A program made the position numbers and the translations under genes. DNA of 64,000 nt. Origin: Rodentibacter caecimuris (GTDB lineage Bacteria; Pseudomonadota; Gammaproteobacteria; Enterobacterales; Pasteurellaceae). The notes under the pieces are model-generated. The model was not told the DNA's origin. It saw only the letters and a program-made list of their open reading frames with translations, and did not search any database. Of this stretch, positions 10,030 to 63,380 are shown piece by piece. The stretch lies in NCBI RefSeq assembly GCF_001019715.1, contig NZ_BBXJ01000001.1, positions 1,612,001-1,676,000 on the forward strand, written 5' to 3'. The first letter of the stretch is position 1; each line of letters starts with the position of its first letter.

Positions 10030-10833
10030 TTATAGGTTATCCAGTAACATTTTCATCCCAGCTAATAACCAAAGATGAGCGGGATAAAACGCATAGAAAA
10101 AGTACATCTGAAATTTTGAGGGTTTTCTCCTACCCATATTAAACCAAGCAGGAATGTTACGTTCTTGAGGCGGGGACAGGATAAAATAGACAGACATAAC
10201 AATAGCCAATATCATTGGAAAGCCAATAGTGGTGTCATAATATGCCGACATCATTTCCTCATTCGCTAAAAATGCAAATCCCACTAATCCAATAAACCAT
10301 AATTGACGGCTTATTTTTGTCATTGGCAGATAACGAACAAAAAAATAACACGCCACACAATACGAGAGTCCTCCGAAATGATAATCCGAATAATGAGATA
10401 AAATCACCCCTACCCCACCTAATACAGCATATTTTATGGCGAAAATAAGTTGCTCTCCTTGAGATTGGATGGATTGAAGATGAGTTAAGCGGGAAAAAGA
10501 AAAAATAACTAAAATAAGCCCAACAAATTGCCCATAAATATTTAATCCGGCATCAGGAATAAAAAAAACGTAAGCATATTGAGCCGGTATACCAAATAAA
10601 ATCAGTTTTAACAGATAACTGAGTGTGCGACGTGTGTTTAACTCTCGACTTGCCAGATTAAATGCCATTAAAAAACCAAATGTCAGGAAAGAAAATCGAC
10701 CAATTAATCGAAATAATATAAGTTCGGGGGTATATCCGCCAAATATGGCCCCAACATGATCAAAAACCATCGTACAAAGTGCGAGCCATTTTAATAAATT
10801 TCGTTGCGTATTCGTTATGTCTTTCACGGTCAT
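10030..10833 (-). CDS. traX: TraX family membrane protein (probable pilin or surface acyltransferase)
   Basis: A 267-residue protein with about eight transmembrane helices. The N-terminal LLKWLALCTMVFDHVGAIF and the following GRFSFLTFGFLMAFNL match the TraX motif, and the C-terminal FYAFYPAHLW is the usual closing signature. In the F plasmid TraX acetylates the pilin N-terminus; ICE homologues are assumed to act on the pilus or an envelope component. The ATG at 10831-10833 follows GGAAGGA. A terminator separates it from the upstream gene, so it is probably transcribed on its own. The interval 9897-10029 before the next gene shows no clear feature. Confidence 0.88.
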   Translation of the reverse strand: MTVKDITNTQRNLLKWLALCTMVFDHVGAIFGGYTPELILFRLIGRFSFLTFGFLMAFNLASRELNTRRTLSYLLKLILFGIPAQYAYVFFIPDAGLNIYGQFVGLILVIFSFSRLTHLQSIQSQGEQLIFAIKYAVLGGVGVILSHYSDYHFGGLSYCVACYFFVRYLPMTKISRQLWFIGLVGFAFLANEEMMSAYYDTTIGFPMILAIVMSVYFILSPPQERNIPAWFNMGRRKPSKFQMYFFYAFYPAHLWLLAGMKMLLDNL

Positions 10834-10860
10834 TTATCCTTCCTTTCCCTATTGTATCGC

Positions 10861-10899
10861 AAAAAAAGTAAAGCCTATCCACAAAAAGTAGATAGGCTT
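10861..10899 (-). terminator. Terminator after the unknown gene at 10919-11509
   Basis: Arms AAGCCTATC (10871-10879) and GATAGGCTT (10891-10899) form a perfect 9-bp hairpin, followed on the minus strand by TACTTTTTTT. Confidence 0.85.
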
Positions 10900-10918
10900 A
10901 ATAGTTTATAAATTAAAA

Positions 10919-11509
10919 TCAATACTCGTATTCGAGCATAATGGTTGTAGAACTTCGGTCAGCTTCGGTGAGCACATAAACGTATTCGTCACCAATATAA
11001 TGATGACTTAATACCCGTCCACCGTTTTCCACAGCATGATCATTTAATGCCCAATCGCTAGGACCAACCATCCCCCAATCATAGCGGTGCTGTTTTTCAA
11101 TCAATCTATGGATATCTTGCATAGCTAATGATTTTTCAACTTCAGCAGTGCAGACGACTTTACCAAGCGTAAAAGGCATCTTTCTTGATTGGTATAGCAT
11201 CCAGTCAAAATAACCTTTTGTTCGATCATGAGTTTCATCGGAAAAACAAACTTCTGTCCGATAAGTTTCTGAGTCCAAATCGGTTATCACTACGACGTCA
11301 TGCTCACCGAATGGATAGGCGTAGTAGTTCACGACAAATTTCACATTAGGATCATAAGATATTTGACGCCATTCACCATTCTTTAACTTGATATAACCAT
11401 CCCGGTGAGACGTGGTGACTTGACTAATCTCATCTGCCGTTAACTCCGCTGAGATCCGACGGGAAATAATGATTTTACCTAATTCTAAAACATAATTTTT
11501 CTGACACAT
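10919..11509 (-). CDS. Unknown ICE protein (196 aa) under a switch-like leader
   Basis: The start is the ATG at 11507-11509 (MCQKNYVLELG), preceded by AGGAGAAACACC. The protein is soluble, acidic, with no signal peptide or membrane helix. Recognisable stretches include WRQISYDPNVKFVVNYYAYPFGEHD and an ending TIMLEYEY; I do not recognise a function. Its leader (11510-11590) belongs to the six-member structured family described for this region, with one arm that can cover the ribosome binding site. It is ended by a strong hairpin terminator, so it is a single-gene unit. Confidence 0.72.
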   Translation of the reverse strand: MCQKNYVLELGKIIISRRISAELTADEISQVTTSHRDGYIKLKNGEWRQISYDPNVKFVVNYYAYPFGEHDVVVITDLDSETYRTEVCFSDETHDRTKGYFDWMLYQSRKMPFTLGKVVCTAEVEKSLAMQDIHRLIEKQHRYDWGMVGPSDWALNDHAVENGGRVLSHHYIGDEYVYVLTEADRSSTTIMLEYEY

Positions 11510-11590
11510 GGTGTTTCTCCTAAACTTAATTTTTAAGTAAAAATGTAAAAGGGATAACACCATCATTGAGGGATGTTATCCCTCAATGGG
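11510..11590 (-). promoter_or_regulatory. Structured leader 1 of 6 (upstream of the unknown gene at 10919)
   Basis: On the minus strand, a perfect 11-bp hairpin (CATTGAGGGAT / ATCCCTCAATG) is followed by the arm GGTGTTATCCC (11551-11561). That arm can pair with GGGATAACA in the first hairpin (9 bp) or with GGAGAAACACC (11510-11520), which holds the Shine-Dalgarno sequence. The two pairings exclude each other. Confidence 0.7.
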
Positions 11591-11599
11591 CTGTACAAA

Positions 11600-12076
11600 C
11601 TAATCTATCAGTAAGCTATTTTCTGAAAAACTGTAGTATTCACTACCGAATACAATAATGTGATCAAGTAAATCAACTTCCATTAATCTACATACTCTCA
11701 TCATTCCCTCTGTAAACTTCTGGTCTTGATAACTGGGTACCACATTTCCGGATGGATGGTTGTGCCCAATCACAATTGCAACCGCGTTTAGCTGTAATGC
11801 CCGCTTAATGACTTCGCGAGGCGATATTGACACGGAAGTCACATTGCCCTGAAACAATATTTCAGCTTTAAGCAAACGATGACTACAATCTAAAAATAAT
11901 ACCGCACACATTTCTCTTTCTTCATAACCTATTAGGGTTTGAAAGTGAAACGCGACCATTTCCGATTCCATTAATTCTTTTTCAGAACGATATATTGGAG
12001 TATTCTCCGTTATTTTCGTCAAAATCTCTTTCGCCTGATTTAAGATAGTTTGTTCATTTGCATTTAATTGGTACAT
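11600..12076 (-). CDS. radC: RadC-like JAB-domain protein
   Basis: A 158-residue protein carrying the JAMM/RadC zinc motif as IGHNHPSGN with a downstream Asp (SYQDQKF). It lacks the N-terminal helix-hairpin-helix domain of chromosomal RadC, which is the usual form on mobile elements. The biochemical role of RadC is unsettled; ICE and plasmid copies are often found beside anti-restriction and establishment genes. It has its own structured leader, in which the ribosome binding site can form a perfect 8-bp hairpin, and an uptake-sequence terminator separates it from the gene before it. Confidence 0.92.
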   Translation of the reverse strand: MYQLNANEQTILNQAKEILTKITENTPIYRSEKELMESEMVAFHFQTLIGYEEREMCAVLFLDCSHRLLKAEILFQGNVTSVSISPREVIKRALQLNAVAIVIGHNHPSGNVVPSYQDQKFTEGMMRVCRLMEVDLLDHIIVFGSEYYSFSENSLLID

Positions 12077-12135
12077 TTGATATTCCTTCTAAAAAGAGGG
12101 AATATCCCCATAAGGGAAATATTCCCTTTATGGGG
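12077..12135 (-). promoter_or_regulatory. Structured leader 2 of 6 (upstream of radC)
   Basis: GATATTCC (plus 12099-12106) pairs perfectly with GGAATATC (plus 12079-12086), which overlaps the radC ribosome binding site. The alternative is GATATTCCC pairing with GGGAATAT of the first hairpin (CCCCATAAAGGGAA / TTCCCTTATGGGG). The core occupies 12098-12135. Confidence 0.75.
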
Positions 12136-12136
12136 T

Positions 12137-12165
12137 AAAAGTGCAGTCAAAATTGACCGCACTTT
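12137..12165 (-). terminator. Terminator built from paired uptake sequences
   Basis: AAAGTGCAGTCAA and TTGACCGCACTTT form an inverted repeat with one mismatch. The right half is a perfect Haemophilus-type uptake sequence and the left half has one change. It follows the gene at 12173-12406. Confidence 0.75.
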
Positions 12166-12172
12166 CAAGTGA

Positions 12173-12406
12173 TTATTTTGAAGCAATCGTGTTTATTTCC
12201 ACGACTTTATAGTTTAAATATCCATGATAAACATAGGGAGGATTATGGATTTGACATAAGTCACCAACCCGGAGTTGCGATACAGGAATATAAGCATTGT
12301 CAATCGGATAATGAGATACACCGACATCAATCACTTTTCCGTCTGCTTCAGTTGTGATTCTATGTAAATCTTGTCCTTTATCTTCTAAGATAATTTCATA
12401 TTTCAT
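12173..12406 (-). CDS. Unknown 77-residue protein
   Basis: A small soluble protein, MKYEIILEDKGQDLHR at the start and YLNYKVVEINTIASK at the end, probably a compact beta-rich fold; no family recognised. The ATG follows AAAGGAGCAATCT at good spacing. It lies 30 bases after the DUF3560-like gene without an intervening leader or terminator, so the two form a two-gene unit. An uptake-sequence terminator follows. A function linked to the upstream gene is possible but there is no evidence for a specific one. Confidence 0.65.
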   Translation of the reverse strand: MKYEIILEDKGQDLHRITTEADGKVIDVGVSHYPIDNAYIPVSQLRVGDLCQIHNPPYVYHGYLNYKVVEINTIASK

Positions 12407-12436
12407 AGATTGCTCCTTTCATAGCGAGGTAAACGT

Positions 12437-13084
12437 TTATGCCCAAAGCAATTTGGCTAATTTCACTTTTTTCTCTAACTCATTGACTGCTTTCTTAGCG
12501 TAAGTGAGAGAATAAGCGTGCGACCGCTTTTCCGGGTGCTCCTTCAAGTCTTGGTGCTTTTCACGGGCTTTTTCCAGCTCAAACTGAAAATACTCAAGGC
12601 TTTCCGGCATCGATAAATCTATTTTATCAGCCATTCTCTCCCAGTAAGCAATACGGTCTTGATAGCTTACGGCTTTTTTCATTTCCTCAACGGATTTATC
12701 CATTCGGCGAGCATTACGTTCTATCAACGCACAATGGCGTTTCTCACTATGGTGCCCAATTTTAATCGGCTCAGCGAGACGAAGAAATTCACGCCCCTCG
12801 TTTGCCGCTTCGCACCACTGGTTACTCCGCTTGGTTGCATTATCAGCATAACCCTGATAGCGTTCGGCCCGTTTTTCAGCTCGTGTTTGAGCGTTTTCAC
12901 CGTCACAACGTATAAACGAGTAAAAATAAGCATCTTCAGTCTGTTTCACGAGATTGTGAATTTCGACCTCTGCTTCTTTGCCATATTTACTGGTTAAAGT
13001 AACGATGTCGCCCTTAACATGAGCTTCAGGACATTTAGCAACAAAAACGTTTGGACAAAATTTTGCATAAGTATTAATGGTCAT
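12437..13084 (-). CDS. DUF3560-like ICE protein
   Basis: A 215-residue soluble protein starting at the ATG at 13082-13084 (MTINTYAKF). The central part, EKRAERYQGYADNATKRSN followed by GREFLRLAEPIKIGHHSEKR and HCALIERNARRMDKSVEE, is the typical DUF3560 stretch; the C-terminal half is helical and rich in Lys and Glu. DUF3560 proteins are common on ICEs and plasmids; no activity is known. It carries structured leader 3, and is co-transcribed with the 77-residue gene downstream. Confidence 0.78.
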   Translation of the reverse strand: MTINTYAKFCPNVFVAKCPEAHVKGDIVTLTSKYGKEAEVEIHNLVKQTEDAYFYSFIRCDGENAQTRAEKRAERYQGYADNATKRSNQWCEAANEGREFLRLAEPIKIGHHSEKRHCALIERNARRMDKSVEEMKKAVSYQDRIAYWERMADKIDLSMPESLEYFQFELEKAREKHQDLKEHPEKRSHAYSLTYAKKAVNELEKKVKLAKLLWA

Positions 13085-13153
13085 CGTATTTCTCCTTGAT
13101 GTAAAAAAGAAGGGAAATACGCTGCCCAAAGGGAACATATTTCCCTTTAGGGT
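13085..13153 (-). promoter_or_regulatory. Structured leader 3 of 6 (upstream of the DUF3560-like gene)
   Basis: The arm CGTATTTCCC (plus 13112-13121) can pair with GGAGAAATACG over the ribosome binding site (plus 13085-13095, one bulge) or with GGGAAATATG of the first hairpin (10 bp with one G-U). The first hairpin is AAAGGGAA / TTCCCTTT flanked by CCC and GGG. Confidence 0.72.
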
Positions 13154-13170
13154 TGTAAAAGAAAATTAAT

Positions 13171-13608
13171 CTAAAACAGCTTTCTAGGTGAATAGCTGAT
13201 ACAGCCTTCGGATTTCTCAATATCGACAAATAAATATTCATATTTATCGTAGAGTTTAACCAAAGGATGTGTCCGATTTAATACACTACGACAGATACCG
13301 TGCATACCAAAAAAATACCAAGGTATGGCTGAATCGTACATATCGTATTTTTCTACCATATTGAATGCATCAACGGTATCTAAGTAAGCTACATCTTGAG
13401 TAGCTTTCTCTGATGCCACGGCAATCTCGCTATTTAACCGATGTAAAATATCCGCCCATCCCGGTGAAGACTGAATCCGTTGACGAAGATAATCTCGCAA
13501 ATCTATCAAATCACAATGATAGACAGTCAGCAGATAAACGCTCTCCATCACGTTTTCATAGGTCGTTTTACGGGACAAAGTTGGTATAGGTAAATGGGTC
13601 GCTATCAT
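13171..13608 (-). CDS. Unknown 145-residue ICE protein
   Basis: The preferred start is the ATG at 13606-13608 (MIATHLPIPT), preceded by AGGAGAAACAAA, in the same register as the other leader-controlled genes; an upstream in-frame start at 13623 would place the ribosome site inside the gene. The protein is soluble and mostly helical, with several His and Tyr residues, and a stretch FFGMHGICRSVLNRTHPLVK. I recognise no family. It carries structured leader 4 and lies between two other leader-controlled units. Confidence 0.65.
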   Translation of the reverse strand: MIATHLPIPTLSRKTTYENVMESVYLLTVYHCDLIDLRDYLRQRIQSSPGWADILHRLNSEIAVASEKATQDVAYLDTVDAFNMVEKYDMYDSAIPWYFFGMHGICRSVLNRTHPLVKLYDKYEYLFVDIEKSEGCISYSPRKLF

Positions 13609-13667
13609 TTTGTTTCTCCTCATAGAAAAATAAGGGGAAACGTCCGTGGGGAGGTTTCCCCAACGGG
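13609..13667 (-). promoter_or_regulatory. Structured leader 4 of 6
   Basis: The arm GTTTCCCC (plus 13634-13641) can pair with GGAGAAAC over the ribosome binding site (plus 13612-13619, one mismatch or bulge) or perfectly with GGGGAAAC in the first hairpin. The first hairpin is CCGT-GGGG / CCCC-ACGG with a bulged T. Confidence 0.68.
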
Positions 13668-13680
13668 TAAATGAAAGATA

Positions 13681-13708
13681 AAAGTGCGGTTAAATTTGAA
13701 CGCACTTT
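13681..13708 (-). terminator. Terminator built from paired uptake sequences
   Basis: AAAGTGCG and CGCACTTT arms flank a short A/T loop; the left side is a perfect uptake sequence. It lies after the stop of the coiled-coil gene at 13727. Confidence 0.75.
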
Positions 13709-13726
13709 GGAAAGTAAAAGAAAGAA

Positions 13727-14020
13727 TTAGTTGATAAACTTCATCAAGCTCATCAATACACCTGTTCCAGCCAAAATTAAACCCGCCATTTTGTACATGG
13801 CTGAAGTTAATTCTGTTCTCAATTGGGACATTTCCAATCTAAGTTCAGCTTTTAACTCTTTTAAATCAGCCTTGGTTGCAAGTGGGCTTTGGCTTTGTTC
13901 CAGTGCATCATCTAATGCATTGGCAAGGGCTTCGGCCATTTCGGTCGATTGATTAGCCTCTTGCAATTTTTTTACAAAACGCAATTTATCAAAGCGAATG
14001 GTTGCCATAGCATTCCCCAT
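13727..14020 (-). CDS. Small coiled-coil membrane-anchored protein (DUF1640/CCDC90-like)
   Basis: A 97-residue protein with an N-terminal segment TIRFDKLRFVKKLQEAN, a Glu/Leu/Lys-rich coiled coil (about residues 50-75) and a C-terminal hydrophobic helix ending LMKFIN. This layout matches the DUF1640/CCDC90-like proteins common on phages and ICEs, of unknown function. The start at 14018-14020 keeps the AGGAGAAATTAT spacing seen in the neighbouring genes; an internal ATG four codons later is possible. It carries structured leader 5 and is followed by an uptake-sequence terminator. Confidence 0.78.
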   Translation of the reverse strand: MGNAMATIRFDKLRFVKKLQEANQSTEMAEALANALDDALEQSQSPLATKADLKELKAELRLEMSQLRTELTSAMYKMAGLILAGTGVLMSLMKFIN

Positions 14021-14093
14021 ATAATTTCTCCTAAGGTTGGTTAATCATAACACAAAGAGAAATTCCCCACGAAGGGAAAACTTCCCCTTGTGG
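14021..14093 (-). promoter_or_regulatory. Structured leader 5 of 6
   Basis: AATTTCTC (plus 14057-14064) pairs perfectly with GAGAAATT (plus 14023-14030) at the ribosome binding site. The same arm extended to AATTTCTCTTTG can pair with CAAGGGGAAGTT of the first hairpin, 12 bp including three G-U pairs. Confidence 0.72.
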
Positions 14094-14121
14094 GTAATGG
14101 AAAAAATCACCATTATTTCGG

Positions 14122-14153
14122 TAAAACAAAGACCAACAACATTGCTGGTCTTT
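14122..14153 (-). terminator. Terminator after the DUF3577-like gene
   Basis: Arms AAAGACCA and TGGTCTTT (plus 14128-14135 and 14146-14153) followed on the minus strand by GTTTT. It lies 20 bases past the stop of the DUF3577-like gene. Confidence 0.8.
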
Positions 14154-14173
14154 ATTGTTTAAGATCATGCTGA

Positions 14174-14617
14174 CTATTGGTTTTCACCTTGTTCAGCCGA
14201 TTTTTGAGATTTTTGTTCTCGCTGATATTTAACGTCACCATCAACTTTAATCATATCGATGAGAATTAAACGCCCTTTTAAGGACACGCCAACATCTCCT
14301 TTTTTATGGTACTGAGTATCCTTTGTATAAGTAAAGGTATCAGTCCATATATCAGAGATATTAAATGAAATGAGCACTTTTCTCTTTTCATCCACGGCTT
14401 GTTCACAACGTTTAATTAAACTCTCGGCTTCTTTACCAACAACGTTGGTATCGAAATAACGATACTCCACATCATTGTTATCACCGACTAAAGCGGCAAT
14501 ACGGCAAGCTAAGAAAGGTGAACCTTTTTTAGGCGTTACCGTGCGAATATCGCTTAAATAGCCGATGCCTGTGGTGTGTAAGTTAAAATAAGTTTTAGCG
14601 TTAGTTTGAGTAGACAT
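14174..14617 (-). CDS. STY4534/DUF3577 family ICE protein
   Basis: A 147-residue protein starting at the ATG at 14615-14617 (MSTQTNAKTYFNLHTTG). The pattern GIGYLSDIRTVTPKKGSPFLACRI, then YRYFDTNVVG, is typical of the STY4534/DUF3577 family, found in most ICEs of this class near topoisomerase III and SSB and often labelled replication-associated; its biochemistry is unknown, though the beta-rich profile suggests an OB-like fold. The C-terminus is a short charged tail. It carries leader 6, whose ribosome binding site can be closed by a perfect 10-bp helix. Confidence 0.85.
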   Translation of the reverse strand: MSTQTNAKTYFNLHTTGIGYLSDIRTVTPKKGSPFLACRIAALVGDNNDVEYRYFDTNVVGKEAESLIKRCEQAVDEKRKVLISFNISDIWTDTFTYTKDTQYHKKGDVGVSLKGRLILIDMIKVDGDVKYQREQKSQKSAEQGENQ

Positions 14618-14693
14618 AATGTTTCTCCTAATTGTAAAAAAGCGGAGAAACATCCTTACCCAATGCACGGGAAAAATGTTTCCCGCCAAGGGT
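14618..14693 (-). promoter_or_regulatory. Structured leader 6 of 6 (upstream of the DUF3577-like gene)
   Basis: ATGTTTCTCC (plus 14644-14653) pairs perfectly over 10 bp with GGAGAAACAT (plus 14619-14628), covering the ribosome binding site. The same arm can instead pair with GCGGGAAACAT of the first hairpin with one bulge. The first hairpin core is CGGGAAA / TTTCCCG. Confidence 0.78.
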
Positions 14694-14712
14694 TAAATTG
14701 ATAAGTAAAATA

Positions 14713-14760
14713 AGCGTTCCCAATATCATTGGAGCTCTTTTCAGAACGCTGAGAGACATT
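14713..14760 (-). ncRNA. Structured element, copy A of a two-copy hairpin
   Basis: On the minus strand AGCGTTC pairs with GAACGCT around 24 bases: an 11-base segment TGAAAAGAGCT and an inner hairpin CCAAT-GAT-ATTGG. Copy B at 15243 has the same geometry with compensating changes in both stems. No known RNA family recognised. Confidence 0.55.
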
Positions 14761-14913
14761 GAACTCCCCACTCATCAACGACGAGGCATTGCTCTTTCAA
14801 GGGATGGCAATGTTTAAGTGCTATCAACGATAGCTGCTTAATATTTAAAGATGGGCTTAATGTAAAATTTTTTGTATAAAATAAATACATTTAATTGAAT
14901 ATTCTGTTTAGAC

Positions 14914-14949
14914 AATAAAATAGCCCCTAGGCAAACGCACCAGGGGCTA
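14914..14949 (-). terminator. Terminator of a minus-strand transcript from the topB side
   Basis: TAGCCCCT and AGGGGCTA (plus 14921-14928 and 14942-14949) form an 8-bp stem followed on the minus strand by TTTTATTG. It lies some 410 bases past the topB stop with no gene in between, so it may end a non-coding RNA or a topB 3' tail. Confidence 0.8.
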
Positions 14950-15149
14950 CACAGATAAGAACAAATTTGATAAGTCAGGCTATATAATACAAGTGGTGCT
15001 GTATCATCCTCGTCAAAACATAATACAACGACATTCTTCTATTATTCGGTAACAAAGCAGCCTCTTACCGATACAACGCGCATTATTACAATGCAAAGGG
15101 CACTCAATGTTTCACCGGTGAGCTCCGGTTTGGATAAATAAGCATTACT

Positions 15150-15189
15150 GCAAGGACAAAAAAATACCTCAATACTCTTTTGTCCTTAC
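15150..15189 (-). repeat. Long inverted repeat in the non-coding interval
   Basis: GCAAGGACAAAA and TTTTGTCCTTAC (plus 15150-15161 and 15178-15189) form a 12-bp helix with one G-U pair around a 16-base loop. Neither strand shows a full terminator tail right after it. Confidence 0.7.
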
Positions 15190-15242
15190 AGTAAATCAAT
15201 TTGTAAGGTAGCGACAAAAAATCGTATCGCATGGTTTAGTTT

Positions 15243-15288
15243 GCATTCCTGCCAACAGCAGAGTCCTTTTCAGAATGCTGAGGAACAT
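15243..15288 (-). ncRNA. Structured element, copy B of a two-copy hairpin
   Basis: GCATTC pairs with GAATGC around 24 bases made of TGAAAAGGACT and the inner hairpin CTGCT-GTT-GGCAG (one G-U). Lengths of every segment equal those in copy A at 14713. Confidence 0.55.
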
Positions 15289-15359
15289 TTTTCTGTATTG
15301 ATGACCGACAATACAAAGCGGTTTTGCAAATCAAATTGTAGCAAATCTACAAAACAACA

Positions 15360-17369
15360 TCAAACGAGGATCTGATTTCCCCTTTCTCTCACAACTTTTT
15401 TCTTTCTTGTTCGTTTTCCGCCAATACTTTCTAATCCATCACATTTAGGGTATTGGCTGCATCCCCAAAATAAACCGTTTTTTCCCTTCCGCTTGATCAT
15501 CGGGGAACCACATTTAGAACACTTTTTAATTTCAATACTTCCTAAAGAGATCCCTTTTGCAAGACACTCTTTCATCAATTGCCGAATAAACTGCTCTTGT
15601 CTCTGCATAAAAACATCAAGTGAAAGCGTTTTTTCTGCAATCTGATTCAGGGCTTGCTCCCAAAGCGCGGTTAAACCCGGATCTTTGAGTAATACCGGCA
15701 AGTTATCAATCAAAGAAACGGCTTCATTTGTAGCAATCAATGATTTCCCTTTTTTGGCTAAGAAACCTTTATCAATCAACCCCTGAATTGTTCCGGCTCG
15801 CGTTGCCTCCGTGCCAAGCCCTTCCGTTTCACGTAACCGTTGTTTTAATCTCTCATCCGTAACAAATCTAGCCGCATTTTTCATTGCACTGAGTAGCGTC
15901 CCTTCAGTGAAATGGTTTGGCGGTGTGGTTTGTTGGGTTTTCATTTCCGTATCGATGACCCGGCAAGTTTGTCCTTGCGTTAAGGTCGGGAGCGCTTGTT
16001 TAGATTCATCTTCTTCATCAAGCGTTTTGCCAAATAAGATTTTCCAGCCGGGAGCAATCAACACATTCCCCCGTGCAGCCAACACATGTTGGCCGCACTT
16101 CAACACAATTTGGGTTTTATCGGTTTCACTCACCGGTAGGAACTGAGCTAAATAACGACGGCGAATCAAATCGTAGATCCTAAACTCATCTTCCGACATT
16201 TTACTGATGTCCGCTTTTACCATAGTCGGAATAATGCCATGGTGAGCGGTAATTTTTTTGTCGTTCCATGCTCGGGATTTTTGACTTAGATTTAACTTTG
16301 AGGCAATAGGTTGTAATCTGCTGTCAGATTGAATGAGACACTGAATTACCCTCGGTGCTTCCACTAACTGGGATTCAGGCAAGTAACCGCAATCAGTACG
16401 TGGATAGGTCGTAGCTTTGTGGGTTTCATAAAGTGATTGAGCAATATCAAGCACTTGTTGTGCCCCAAGTCCATAGAGGCGGTTTGCTTCAGATTGTAAA
16501 TCGCTCAAGGCAAATAAAAGCGGCGCACTTTGTTTTTCCCGTTTTGTCTCAACCGATTCAACTTTCGCTTGACCGATTTGACGAATTTGCTGATTAGCAG
16601 CCTGTATCACTTGAGCGGATAAACAAAGCCCATCTGTATCACAATATTGTTCAGGGATAACATATTGTGTAGCAAAAGGTTGCGTTCCCTCAGAAAGCAT
16701 AACCTGTAATGTAAAGTGCTGCTTTGGAATGAAATTTTTAATTTCGCGGTCACGATTAACGACAAGACTTAACGTAGGACTTTGTACACGTCCCACACTT
16801 AATGGTTTACCTTGATAACCTTTTTGTTGGGCAAGCAGCGTAAAAAGGCGGGAGAAATTCATCCCGATAAGCCAATCAGCTCGGCTACGGGCAAGTCCCG
16901 CATAGTAAAGTGGTAAAGTGTCTTCGTTATTCTTTAATGCCCCTAATGCTTTACGAATACTGGCATCATCTAATGCAGACAACCAAAGGCGTTTTATTTG
17001 ACCTCGAAACTTCGCTAAATCAAGCAGCTCCCGGGCTATCGTTTCCCCTTCTCGGTCAATATCGGTAGCAATCACAACCAATTGTGCTTGCTTAATGAGT
17101 TTTATCACAACATTGTACTGTTTCTTCGTTTCTTTTTTAGGTGAAAGCCCCCACTGTGACGGAATAATGGGTAAGGTTTCAAATGCCCATTTTTTAAAAG
17201 CGGGATCGTATTGTTCCGGATTAAACTGCTCAACCAAATGCCCAATTCCCCAGGTCACAATCAGCTGACCATCCGGTGTTGATAAACAACCCTCACCACG
17301 TTTTGTTGCCCCTAATACTTTGGCAATATCATTACCTTGAGAAGGTTTTTCACAAAGAAAAAGTTTCAT
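15360..17369 (-). CDS. topB: DNA topoisomerase III (ICE-borne, TraE/TopB type)
   Basis: A 669-residue type IA topoisomerase. The start is the ATG at 17367-17369 (MKLFLCEKPSQGNDIAKVLG), the Toprim domain onset. The DxDxE stretch ATDIDREGETIARE follows near residue 105, the catalytic Tyr is in TTYPRTDCGYL, and a C-terminal zinc finger CSKCGSPM...WGCSQYPKCDG is followed by a basic tail. Such ICE topoisomerases are thought to resolve replication or transfer intermediates. No strong ribosome site is visible before the ATG. The gene is intact. Confidence 0.95.
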   Translation of the reverse strand: MKLFLCEKPSQGNDIAKVLGATKRGEGCLSTPDGQLIVTWGIGHLVEQFNPEQYDPAFKKWAFETLPIIPSQWGLSPKKETKKQYNVVIKLIKQAQLVVIATDIDREGETIARELLDLAKFRGQIKRLWLSALDDASIRKALGALKNNEDTLPLYYAGLARSRADWLIGMNFSRLFTLLAQQKGYQGKPLSVGRVQSPTLSLVVNRDREIKNFIPKQHFTLQVMLSEGTQPFATQYVIPEQYCDTDGLCLSAQVIQAANQQIRQIGQAKVESVETKREKQSAPLLFALSDLQSEANRLYGLGAQQVLDIAQSLYETHKATTYPRTDCGYLPESQLVEAPRVIQCLIQSDSRLQPIASKLNLSQKSRAWNDKKITAHHGIIPTMVKADISKMSEDEFRIYDLIRRRYLAQFLPVSETDKTQIVLKCGQHVLAARGNVLIAPGWKILFGKTLDEEDESKQALPTLTQGQTCRVIDTEMKTQQTTPPNHFTEGTLLSAMKNAARFVTDERLKQRLRETEGLGTEATRAGTIQGLIDKGFLAKKGKSLIATNEAVSLIDNLPVLLKDPGLTALWEQALNQIAEKTLSLDVFMQRQEQFIRQLMKECLAKGISLGSIEIKKCSKCGSPMIKRKGKNGLFWGCSQYPKCDGLESIGGKRTRKKKVVRERGNQILV

Positions 17370-30111: not shown

Positions 30112-30140
30112 TAGCATTGGTGGGTCGTGAAGGATTCGAA
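30112..30140. other. Probable attachment site: 3' end of tRNA-Lys
   Basis: The ICE genes stop about 60 bases from the CCA end of tRNA-Lys, and the ICE class is known to use the 3' ends of tRNA genes. The exact core cannot be defined because the partner repeat lies outside the window. Confidence 0.6.
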
Positions 30141-30193
30141 CCTTCGACCAACGGATTAAAAGTCCGCTGCTCTACCGACTGAGCTAACGACCC
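30118..30193 (-). tRNA. tRNA-Lys (TTT)
   Basis: 76 bases with an encoded CCA. The acceptor GGGTCGT pairs with ACGACCC; the T arm is GGTTCGAATCC and the anticodon loop reads CTTTTAA, giving TTT. Its 3' end is the likely ICE attachment site. Confidence 0.97.
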
Positions 30194-30245
30194 TAAGAAT
30201 AGGATATTAAAGAAGTTTTTCAGCGAATAGTTAGCAGCCATTAGA

Positions 30246-30332
30246 TGGTGCCCGAAGCCAGACTTGAACTGGCACGCCTCGAAAGGCGAGGGATTTTAAA
30301 TCCCTTGTGTCTACCGATTCCACCACTCGGGC
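30246..30332 (-). tRNA. tRNA-Leu (TAA)
   Basis: 87 bases with a long variable arm (CTCGCCTTTCGAGG) and encoded CCA, as expected of class II tRNA. Acceptor GCCCGAG pairs with TTCGGGC by one G-U; the anticodon loop TTTAAAA gives TAA. Confidence 0.97.
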
Positions 30333-30353
30333 AAACTAACTTACAGCGTATTA

Positions 30354-30427
30354 TGGAGGCGTGTCCCGGAGTCGAACCGAGCTACATGGATTTGCAATCC
30401 AGTGCATAACCGCTTTGCTAACACGCC
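30354..30427 (-). tRNA. tRNA-Cys (GCA)
   Basis: 74 bases with encoded CCA. Acceptor GGCGTGT pairs with ACACGCC; the anticodon loop TTGCAAA gives GCA. Confidence 0.97.
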
Positions 30428-30433
30428 AGTAAT

Positions 30434-30509
<76 letters not shown>

Positions 30510-42917: not shown

Positions 42918-42965
42918 TGTACTGTCCTTATAAAAATAGAAATGAAGAAACAGCCTAATGAAAAG

Positions 42966-43050
42966 AGTTAGTTTCCTACGCCAGCATTATCTGTTTCAGG
43001 TTCACGGGTATCTCTCAGCCAAACAATGTTAGCACCCCGACTAAGGGCTA
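42966..43050 (-). promoter_or_regulatory. TPP riboswitch (THI element)
   Basis: The minus strand has the conserved blocks GGGGTGC, CTGAGAGATACCC, GTGAACCTGA and TAATGCTGGCGTAGGAA in order. It senses thiamine diphosphate and represses the thiBPQ operon. It lies about 50 bases before the thiB start. Confidence 0.97.
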
Positions 43051-63271: not shown

Positions 63272-63380
63272 GGAAACCTTCCCAGCTTCTTCTCGGCACA
63301 CAGAAATTCCGACTTTGGCTGCTTTCTTCCGAACCTGACCGGGTAAACCGGACACCGTTGCGAGAGACCGAGAAGGTTTC
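63272..63380 (-). ncRNA. ffs: 4.5S RNA, bacterial SRP RNA
   Basis: On the minus strand the conserved apical part GTCAGGTTCGGAAGAAAGCAG, the Ffh-binding hairpin with GGAA tetraloop, is flanked by long arms. The ends AAACCTTC and GAAGGTTT pair perfectly. Length of about 109 bases is typical for the Gammaproteobacteria. Exact ends are set by the terminal helix. Confidence 0.95.

Follow-up and report, generated by a model that had tools for sequence, protein, structure and literature searches.

Alternative pairing in a family of RNA leaders, putative translational switches of establishment-type genes in integrative and conjugative elements

Genes and leaders at the locus

The DNA described here is a stretch of 64,000 nucleotides of Rodentibacter caecimuris (contig NZ_BBXJ01000001.1, positions 1,612,001 to 1,676,000), which is called the window in the following. 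The nearest named relative of the element found in it is ICEHin1056 of Haemophilus influenzae (NC_011409), and the window therefore holds an integrative and conjugative element (ICE) of that type. Reading of the sequence from position 10700 to 15100 revealed six genes on the minus strand, each of which is preceded, within 60 to 90 nt before the start codon, by one shared set of parts (Table 1). These follow each other in the order ACCC or a near form of it, the G-rich R1 arm, a small loop, the C-rich R2 arm and, in most cases, GG(G), then the R3 arm, an A/T linker and the R4 arm, which contains the Shine-Dalgarno sequence (SD). R1 and R2 belong to the first hairpin, P1, which is made up of an outer ACCC:GGG and an inner GGGA:TCCC helix.

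An initial annotation of this region had described these parts as a family of switch-like leaders, in which R3 pairs either with R1 or with R4. The R3 and R4 strings quoted there were all present on the minus strand, in the order given and directly upstream of the six start codons, and the observation was confirmed and turned out to be wider than first reported. It had also been claimed that R4 covers the SD together with what follows it as far as the start codon. This applies in general; in the leader at 11510, however, the SD is covered only partly, and the computed fold places an uninterrupted R3:R4 helix (AACACC) between the SD and the start codon. In the computed fold of the DUF3577 leader, the start codon lies outside the helix.

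Pfam supported the labels DUF3577, DUF3560 and RadC, which had been assigned from the sequence alone. The putative coiled-coil protein showed only a CCDC90-like match below the cut-off, and no family above the cut-off was obtained for the genes starting at 13609 and 11510. A search of the seven window proteins with PADLOC gave no match, the viral contigs searched contained no relatives of the DUF3577 protein, and no similar DNA was found in the E. coli genomes searched. In ICEHin1056 (L034), genes for two IS transposases and for chloramphenicol resistance lie beside those of the module.

Computed folds exhibited an additional small hairpin inside the linkers of the leaders at 14021 (about 14040-14051) and 11510 (about 11524-11538), both on the minus strand. 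Furthermore, inverted pairs of AAAGTGCGGT and its relatives, which we take to be of the uptake-signal type, are located at about 12137-12165 and 13681-13708 of the same strand. They look terminator-like by eye and were not flagged by the terminator scan; they stop within about 10 nt of a leader, so that scant space is left for a promoter.

Table 1. Leaders, genes and further features of the locus and of the second leader cluster. Positions are those of the window; bit scores refer to the covariance model built from 23 DUF3560 leaders.
Feature	Position	Strand	Arms, or protein family and remarks	Score
DUF3577 leader	14615-14687	-	P1 = R1 14676-14684 and R2 14668-14676; R3 14644-14653; R4 14619-14628	28.1 bits
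CCDC90-like coiled-coil gene leader	14018-14092	-	R1 14079-14088; R2 14072-14078; R3 14057-14064; R4 14023-14030	24.4 bits
145-aa gene leader	13606-13665	-	R1 13654-13661; R2 13648-13653; R3 13634-13641; R4 13612-13619	24.6 bits
DUF3560 leader	13082-13149	-	R1 13136-13147; R2 13129-13135; R3 13110-13121; R4 13085-13097; member of the training set	75.6 bits
RadC leader	12074-12131	-	R1 12119-12127; R2 12112-12119; R3 12097-12106; R4 12079-12090	43.2 bits
196-aa gene leader	11507-11588	-	R1 11572-11583; R2 11568-11574; R3 11550-11561; R4 11510-11521	27.0 bits
DUF3577 gene	14174-14617	-	PF12101; annotated in ICEHin1056 as STY4534 family ICE replication protein	1.4e-54
CCDC90-like coiled-coil gene, 97 aa	13727-14020	-	PF07798, under the Pfam cut-off	6.5e-7
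Unknown gene, 145 aa	13171-13608	-	no Pfam family over the cut-off	
DUF3560 gene	12437-13084	-	PF12083	2.3e-37
77-aa partner gene	12173-12406	-	without own leader; no Pfam family	
RadC (JAB domain) gene	11600-12076	-	PF04002	7e-37
Unknown gene, 196 aa	10919-11509	-	no Pfam family	
Probable 5' part (5' hairpins) of a diverged radC RNA	14774-14845	-	upstream of the DUF3577 leader; whole element about 14700-14850 by eye	
Second cluster: ArdC gene			PF08401, PF18818	leader model E 2.7e-4
Second cluster: 81-aa gene				leader model E 1.2e-5
Second cluster: N6_Mtase gene (probable DNA methylase)			PF02384; leader weak by model, found by three-helix scan	E 0.05
Second cluster: gene with DUF1281_C match below cut-off			leader found by three-helix scan only	
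Four-tRNA cluster	30121-30509	-	ordinary neighbour	
TPP riboswitch	42956-43049	-	ordinary neighbour	
SRP RNA	63276-63374	-	ordinary neighbour	

Pairing, covariation and computed folding states

In the bacterial family to which R. caecimuris belongs, 36 of the 140 genomes searched contained DUF3577. The 39 regions that were compared comprised the surroundings of the 37 other DUF3577 matches, ICEHin1056 and the window, some of them being near-copies. A scan for P1 only detected 103 leaders on the coding strand and none on the opposite strand, and a three-helix scan detected 185 and 7, respectively. For four of the 103 leaders the start codon was chosen wrongly (L043 592, L048 1194, L065 2061 and L067 1922); these were kept in the pairing test with 40 leaders and omitted from the counts of SDs, T-runs, upstream open reading frames (ORFs), flanks and cross-pairing. 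Additionally, a covariance model (model R1) was built from DUF3560 leaders, of which 27 were found and 23 aligned, with L050, L051, L055 and L062 omitted as near-copies. This DUF3560 leader model recovered all six leaders of the window (E 1.3e-17 to 2.6e-4); since the DUF3560 leader of the window belongs to the training set, the independent recovery is five of five.

Most of the 38 related loci share a highly similar DUF3577 leader, with proteins down to 48% identical to that of the window, and the other leaders of the 39 regions have widely different sequences in which the parts are kept. In the leader alignment, conserved columns are confined almost wholly to the helices and the SD, and the stand-alone leaders therefore offer no sign of a conserved aptamer of unpaired bases. 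The 10 nt located 5' of ACCC are nearly free of G: there was none in 46 of 56 non-redundant leaders, and the G fraction was 0.023 in comparison to 0.16 further upstream.

For the pairing test, 40 non-redundant leaders of the own family were chosen on P1 alone. R3 paired better with the R4 of its own leader (-12.93 kcal/mol) than with that of other leaders (-8.55 kcal/mol; z -12.2), and the same was observed for R3 with its own R1 (-16.39 kcal/mol) in comparison to the R1 of others (-11.30 kcal/mol; z -12.0); none of 20,000 permutations reached either mean. A second set of 45 representatives from other bacteria, nearly all of them Proteobacteria, consisted of 33 DUF3577 leaders and 12 leaders following a radC RNA, and again own partners were preferred (z -8.5 for R3:R4 and -8.7 for R1:R3; 0 of 20,000 permutations), although the lenient P1 finder used for this set misplaced P1 in some of the rows, which were kept (e.g. 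L100, L109, L121 and L196). An earlier run with all 75 leaders had yielded z values of -9.8 and -6.4, despite the fact that in some of them R1:R3 had been taken as P1. The three arms thus change together, and the pairing partner is therefore in cis.

Covariation was analysed in an alignment of the 23 orthologous DUF3560 leaders, which was produced with MAFFT without regard to structure. Changes on both sides occurred in three of six pairs of P1, four of eight pairs of R3:R4 and six of ten pairs of R1:R3, and none of 500 shuffles matched the percentage of paired cells or the covariation score. Cells were paired to 95.4% in R1:R3 and to 80.7% in R3:R4; the shortfall in the latter is due in part to MAFFT having shifted R4 by one base in some rows, which was left uncorrected. 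For P1 together with R3:R4, 17 of 500 shuffles matched the count of pairs changed on both sides. RNAalifold chose R1:R3 with an inner CCC:GGG hairpin for this alignment. One arm can hence engage the SD region or, alternatively, an arm further upstream, and covariation stands behind both helices, as in a mutually exclusive anti-SD/anti-anti-SD arrangement. Selection for structure, which had been proposed from covariation among the paralogous leaders of the window, is thereby borne out in related ICEs, both by the cis versus trans pairing and by the structure-blind alignment.

It could be argued that the leaders are alike merely due to recent duplication or shuffling of cassettes consisting of leader and gene, and that their pairing has no function. 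The leaders are indeed paralogous, and one locus can carry several leader-bearing genes of one family (e.g. three in L038). The sequences diverge, however, while the pairing persists, within orthologues as well as across bacterial families, and the covariation contradicts such an explanation, which we consider hardly credible.

Folding was computed with ViennaRNA at fixed transcript lengths; a helix was counted from at least 5 bp onwards, and chimeras carrying R3 and the linker of another leader served as controls. In the own family, 38 of 40 full leaders formed R3:R4 over or beside the SD. Before R4 was made, R1:R3 formed in 31 of the 40, in comparison to 21% of 115 chimeras, and a complete change-over from R1:R3 to R3:R4 was obtained for 26 leaders, in comparison to 10% of the chimeras. 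Outside the family, R1:R3 was present before R4 in 36 of 45 leaders (39 of 133 chimeras), and the full change-over occurred in 21 (12 of 133 chimeras). When R1:R3 forms, R2 is released and pairs with the outer GGG instead, in individual folds as well as in the RNAalifold consensus. According to these states before and after R4, at equilibrium for each length, a leader tends to be open while it is being made and closed afterwards. The two states postulated in the initial annotation were recovered in so far as R1:R2 with R3:R4 is the computed stable, sequestering state and R1:R3 a real alternative to it.

The same hairpins could also be read as a transcription attenuator with R1:R3 as intrinsic terminator and P1 as antiterminator. 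In most DUF3577 leaders of the family, R3 ends with CCGC followed by six or more T residues and R1 supplies GCGG, and the terminator scan flagged the R1:R3 hairpins of the leaders at 12077 and 14021. A run of five T residues within 2 nt of the R1:R3 helix was, however, present in only 10 of 36 representatives and was by eye missing from most DUF3577 leaders outside the family. Attenuation also fails to explain the covariation between R3 and R4, an arm that adjoins the start codon. With T-runs in 10 of 36, an intrinsic terminator as the general mode of control was rejected, and we consider attenuation improbable.

Spread of the leaders and connection with the radC RNA

Using the DUF3560 leader model at E ≤ 0.01, 35 of the 36 genomes of the family possessing DUF3577 were matched, and single weak matches (E 0.001 to 0.008) were obtained in 7 of 104 genomes without DUF3577. 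In the only DUF3577-bearing genome missed at this threshold (G112, locus L038), the leaders are of a divergent sequence type (CTAGGAGTAA). Out of 491 confirmed relatives, the DUF3577 genes of 80 named loci were fetched, which belong to the Gamma-, Beta- and Alphaproteobacteria, with one contig labelled Gemmatimonadetes; for L089 and L090, tblastn gave no DUF3577 match. Nearly all 80 loci show by eye a leader of the form ACCC..GGG..CCC..GG..R3..R4 before the DUF3577 start, and the lenient P1 finder accepted all 117 DUF3577 and radC-linked leaders. The three-helix scan was noisy in GC-rich loci (191 forward and 103 reverse), and outside the family the leaders were therefore counted from known starts of DUF3577 or known positions of radC RNAs.

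Among the matches listed, many genomes of the family contain a second group about 20-37 kb off. In R. caecimuris itself, this second cluster is located about 22 kb outside the window (near G000:C1:1587400-1589850, minus strand; 5656-8830 of L233) and comprises four leader-bearing genes (Table 1). In relatives, Pfam assigned leader-bearing genes to ArdC and Antirestrict, an antirestriction protein; the Pfam tests covered all but 7 of the 23 leader-bearing families. The initial annotation had suggested a post-transcriptional regulon, and the part of this that stands is a set of ICE genes tagged by the leaders. Those of its members that can be identified are of the establishment type (ArdC, Antirestrict, N6_Mtase, RadC and DUF3577), a content which fits an establishment regulon.

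Establishment-type genes with a hairpin before each of them would likewise suit a role at the DNA level, in which the hairpins would work within the transferred single-stranded DNA as a promoter of the Frpo kind and RNA pairing would be secondary. The double-stranded sequence of the region contains no excess of sigma-70-like sites (6 found, 14.4 expected), which is in line with this idea. On the other hand, the covariation of R4 tracks the SD and the start codon, where pairing matters in the messenger RNA (mRNA), and the module spans only 60-90 nt. A DNA-level role therefore appears very improbable to us.

The radC RNA (RF01754), a motif listed as a row in a table of Weinberg et al. (2010; PMC2864571) and included in a list in PMC7657543, had been named as a possible identity of the leaders. 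RF01754 gave no match in the window at the gathering score of 40 bits, and at E values up to 10 no match in 10500-15200, in 14600-15400 or in the whole genome. Neither did any other Rfam family reach its gathering score in the six leaders; 16 matches below threshold were obtained up to E 10, none of which was a riboswitch aptamer. The identification as radC RNA was thus rejected, and adjacency takes its place: in other bacteria, the same module lies immediately 3' of the radC RNA.

This was seen in L072, where a radC RNA ends just upstream of the DUF3577 leader and the RF01754 model stops before the module. The radC search covered 50 of the 80 named loci, 26 of which contain a radC RNA above the cut-off. 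From 108 listed radC matches over the cut-off, 40, including near-copies, were fetched with the downstream sequence, and 37 of these had a start usable in the outside-family pairing analysis. Applying fixed energy limits, the complete module (P1, R1:R3, R3:R4, SD and start codon) follows the radC RNA in 35 of the 40, in comparison to 76 of 350 shuffled leader bodies; the median distance from the end of the radC RNA to the start codon is 93 nt. By eye, L199, L210 and L214 also carry the module after the radC RNA, and L212 and L223 are without it.

In the window, the stretch upstream of the DUF3577 leader probably contains the 5' part of a diverged radC RNA. A covariance model (model R2) was built from 17 of 18 orthologous upstream stretches including that of the window (L039 was omitted), and its match at the window position is therefore given by construction. 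In 52 radC-bearing loci this upstream model gave seven matches at E up to 1, five of which coincide with the 5' part of the radC RNA on the same strand and in the same register (L177, L181, L176, L221 and L179; E 8e-5 to 0.06). The remaining two were a 15-nt piece at the radC site of L175 and a match off the listed radC site (L180:744-792). Among 24 further loci, two matches were obtained, both in L101 and one of them on a listed radC RNA. In view of these matches, the leader of DUF3577 probably combines a diverged radC RNA with the module, and the remaining five seem to consist of the module alone. Judging from the sequences, the module looks like the switching part of the radC RNA, which is here also deployed on its own. 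A radC RNA positioned 5' of the module would, we infer, bias the same switch.

This connection is also the basis of the main rival to the reading favoured below, namely a switch controlled by a ligand or protein. The radC RNA would then act as sensor with the module as its expression platform, and the stand-alone copies would answer to a protein of the ICE or the host, in line with the shared signal or protein proposed in the initial annotation. Such a protein might bind P1, the G-free flank or R1:R3. Such control is favoured by the radC RNA that immediately precedes the module in 35 of the 40 examples, by its probable diverged copy before the first gene in the window and by the unpaired G-free flank of 10 nt as a possible binding site. 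However, five of the six leaders of the window are without a recognisable radC RNA, the Rfam search revealed neither a family at gathering score nor a riboswitch aptamer, and no aptamer is visible in the module, where nearly all conserved columns are helix or SD. Control by a ligand or protein thus seems rather unlikely, and its action via the radC RNA or the G-free flank would be compatible with a kinetic operation of the module.

Proposed function of the leaders

The explanation that we favour, and hold to be reasonably probable, is that the leaders are cis-acting bistable translational switches, each placed ahead of a single establishment-type gene within one broad ICE family. The leader structure and the sequestration of the start region by it are nearly certain, and the comparisons of pairing and covariation lend good support to the selection of pairing over the start region. 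We infer that the closed state is OFF; what triggers the switch and how R1:R3 acts in its kinetics are part of the same proposal. It is likely that R1:R3 represents the ON state. The nascent leader would first fold as R1:R3, with R2 on the outer GGG, and the SD would therefore emerge free, so that ribosomes can load. An mRNA that is not occupied in time would relax to P1 with R3:R4 and become silent. If the leader is open only while nascent, translation would track fresh transcription and cease soon after. This co-transcriptional, kinetic operation would require no ligand and agrees with the computed energies; for the stand-alone modules we regard the chances as nearly balanced, with a slight lean against it.

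Several observations weigh against this explanation. The closure of R3:R4 is only weakly specific: 83% of the chimeras closed as well, so that closure alone is not a specific feature, and outside the family R3:R4 was formed by 44 of 45 leaders and also by 106 of 133 chimeras. In 9 of the 40 leaders, R1:R3 was not a computed intermediate. Equilibrium energies at fixed lengths also differ from a kinetic simulation, for P1 is formed ahead of R1:R3, and R3 then has to displace it across an energy barrier. The opening energy of the start region exceeds that of control genes only on average (6.7-12.9 in the leaders, control median 5.2); of 39 control genes, 13 reach the lowest leader. Likewise, the probability of the SD being unpaired was below 0.2 in two of six leaders and in 9 of 39 controls, with means of 0.20 and 0.40, respectively.

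The covariation is not without objections either. In the DUF3560 alignment, the further pair types of P1 and R3:R4 were not above the shuffles (484 of 500 were as high), a partner of R1:R3 slid by -2 still scored a covariation of 0.260 in comparison to 0.305, and shuffle controls can be exceeded through sequence relatedness alone. Some orthologous DUF3577 leaders (L046, L059 and L060) have an altered R4 without a matching change in R3. Avoidance of cross-pairing among the leaders of one ICE was not found (-9.19 versus -9.37 kcal/mol); as the energies do not differ, selection for orthogonality between them was rejected. Finally, 8 of 10 further leader-bearing families tested had no Pfam family.

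Mutually exclusive switches at the SD are of a known kind. Translational attenuators of the erm type consist of four segments, and their OFF state is formed by 1:2 and 3:4 with the SD in segment 4; in the leaders described here it is R1 and not R2 that pairs with R3. An SD-preceded upstream ORF was present in 2 of 99 leaders, and control by a leader peptide as in erm was rejected on this count. In the leader of the MS2 maturation gene, a metastable fold of the nascent RNA allows translation until the stable fold hides the start. This is a phage RNA, and the likeness to the leaders, by description, would lie in the proposed metastable open fold.

The radC RNA shares with the leaders the type of mobile element and the genes, occurs directly 5' of the same P1/R3/R4 module and is a cis-regulatory candidate, too. 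It is, however, a separate multi-hairpin element of 149 nt, whose model stops short of the module and gives no match to it, and it is missing from five of the six leaders of the window. A further comparison is offered by the regulatory sequences EGeRS1 and EGeRS2 of plasmids of the pLS20 family, which, as far as they are described by Val-Calvo et al. (2021; PMC8708921), are shared by several establishment operons including that of ardC. EGeRS1 resembles the leaders in having numerous inverted repeats and in reaching to just before the ribosome binding site; compared by this description, it differs from them in its length of 400-600 bp, its unknown mechanism and its occurrence in Bacillus plasmids, and EGeRS2 is a promoter with a repressor (PMC8708921). 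The open-licence papers searched contained no description of the module, with subscription papers and the 2017 motif list outside this scope. The leader family, its spread, the link to the radC RNA and the gene set appear to be new.

The leaders may control genes that come into use shortly after the element has arrived in a new cell. Establishment genes need rapid but transient expression, and in the account of EGeRS1 it is still open how such fast and brief expression arises (PMC8708921); the kinetic switch proposed here would provide what these genes need. Tentatively, this can be extended to a Proteobacteria-wide establishment regulon, which would be defined by a shared co-transcriptional RNA timer rather than by a promoter and repressor, and for which the radC RNA would serve as an upstream input. 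If this is true, a concrete RNA mechanism would exist for the brief and fast expression of antirestriction and establishment genes in a large ICE family. The leader would also tag the regulon at the sequence level, with many of the genes so marked being of unknown family, and it would give a specific hint at what the orphan radC RNA acts on.

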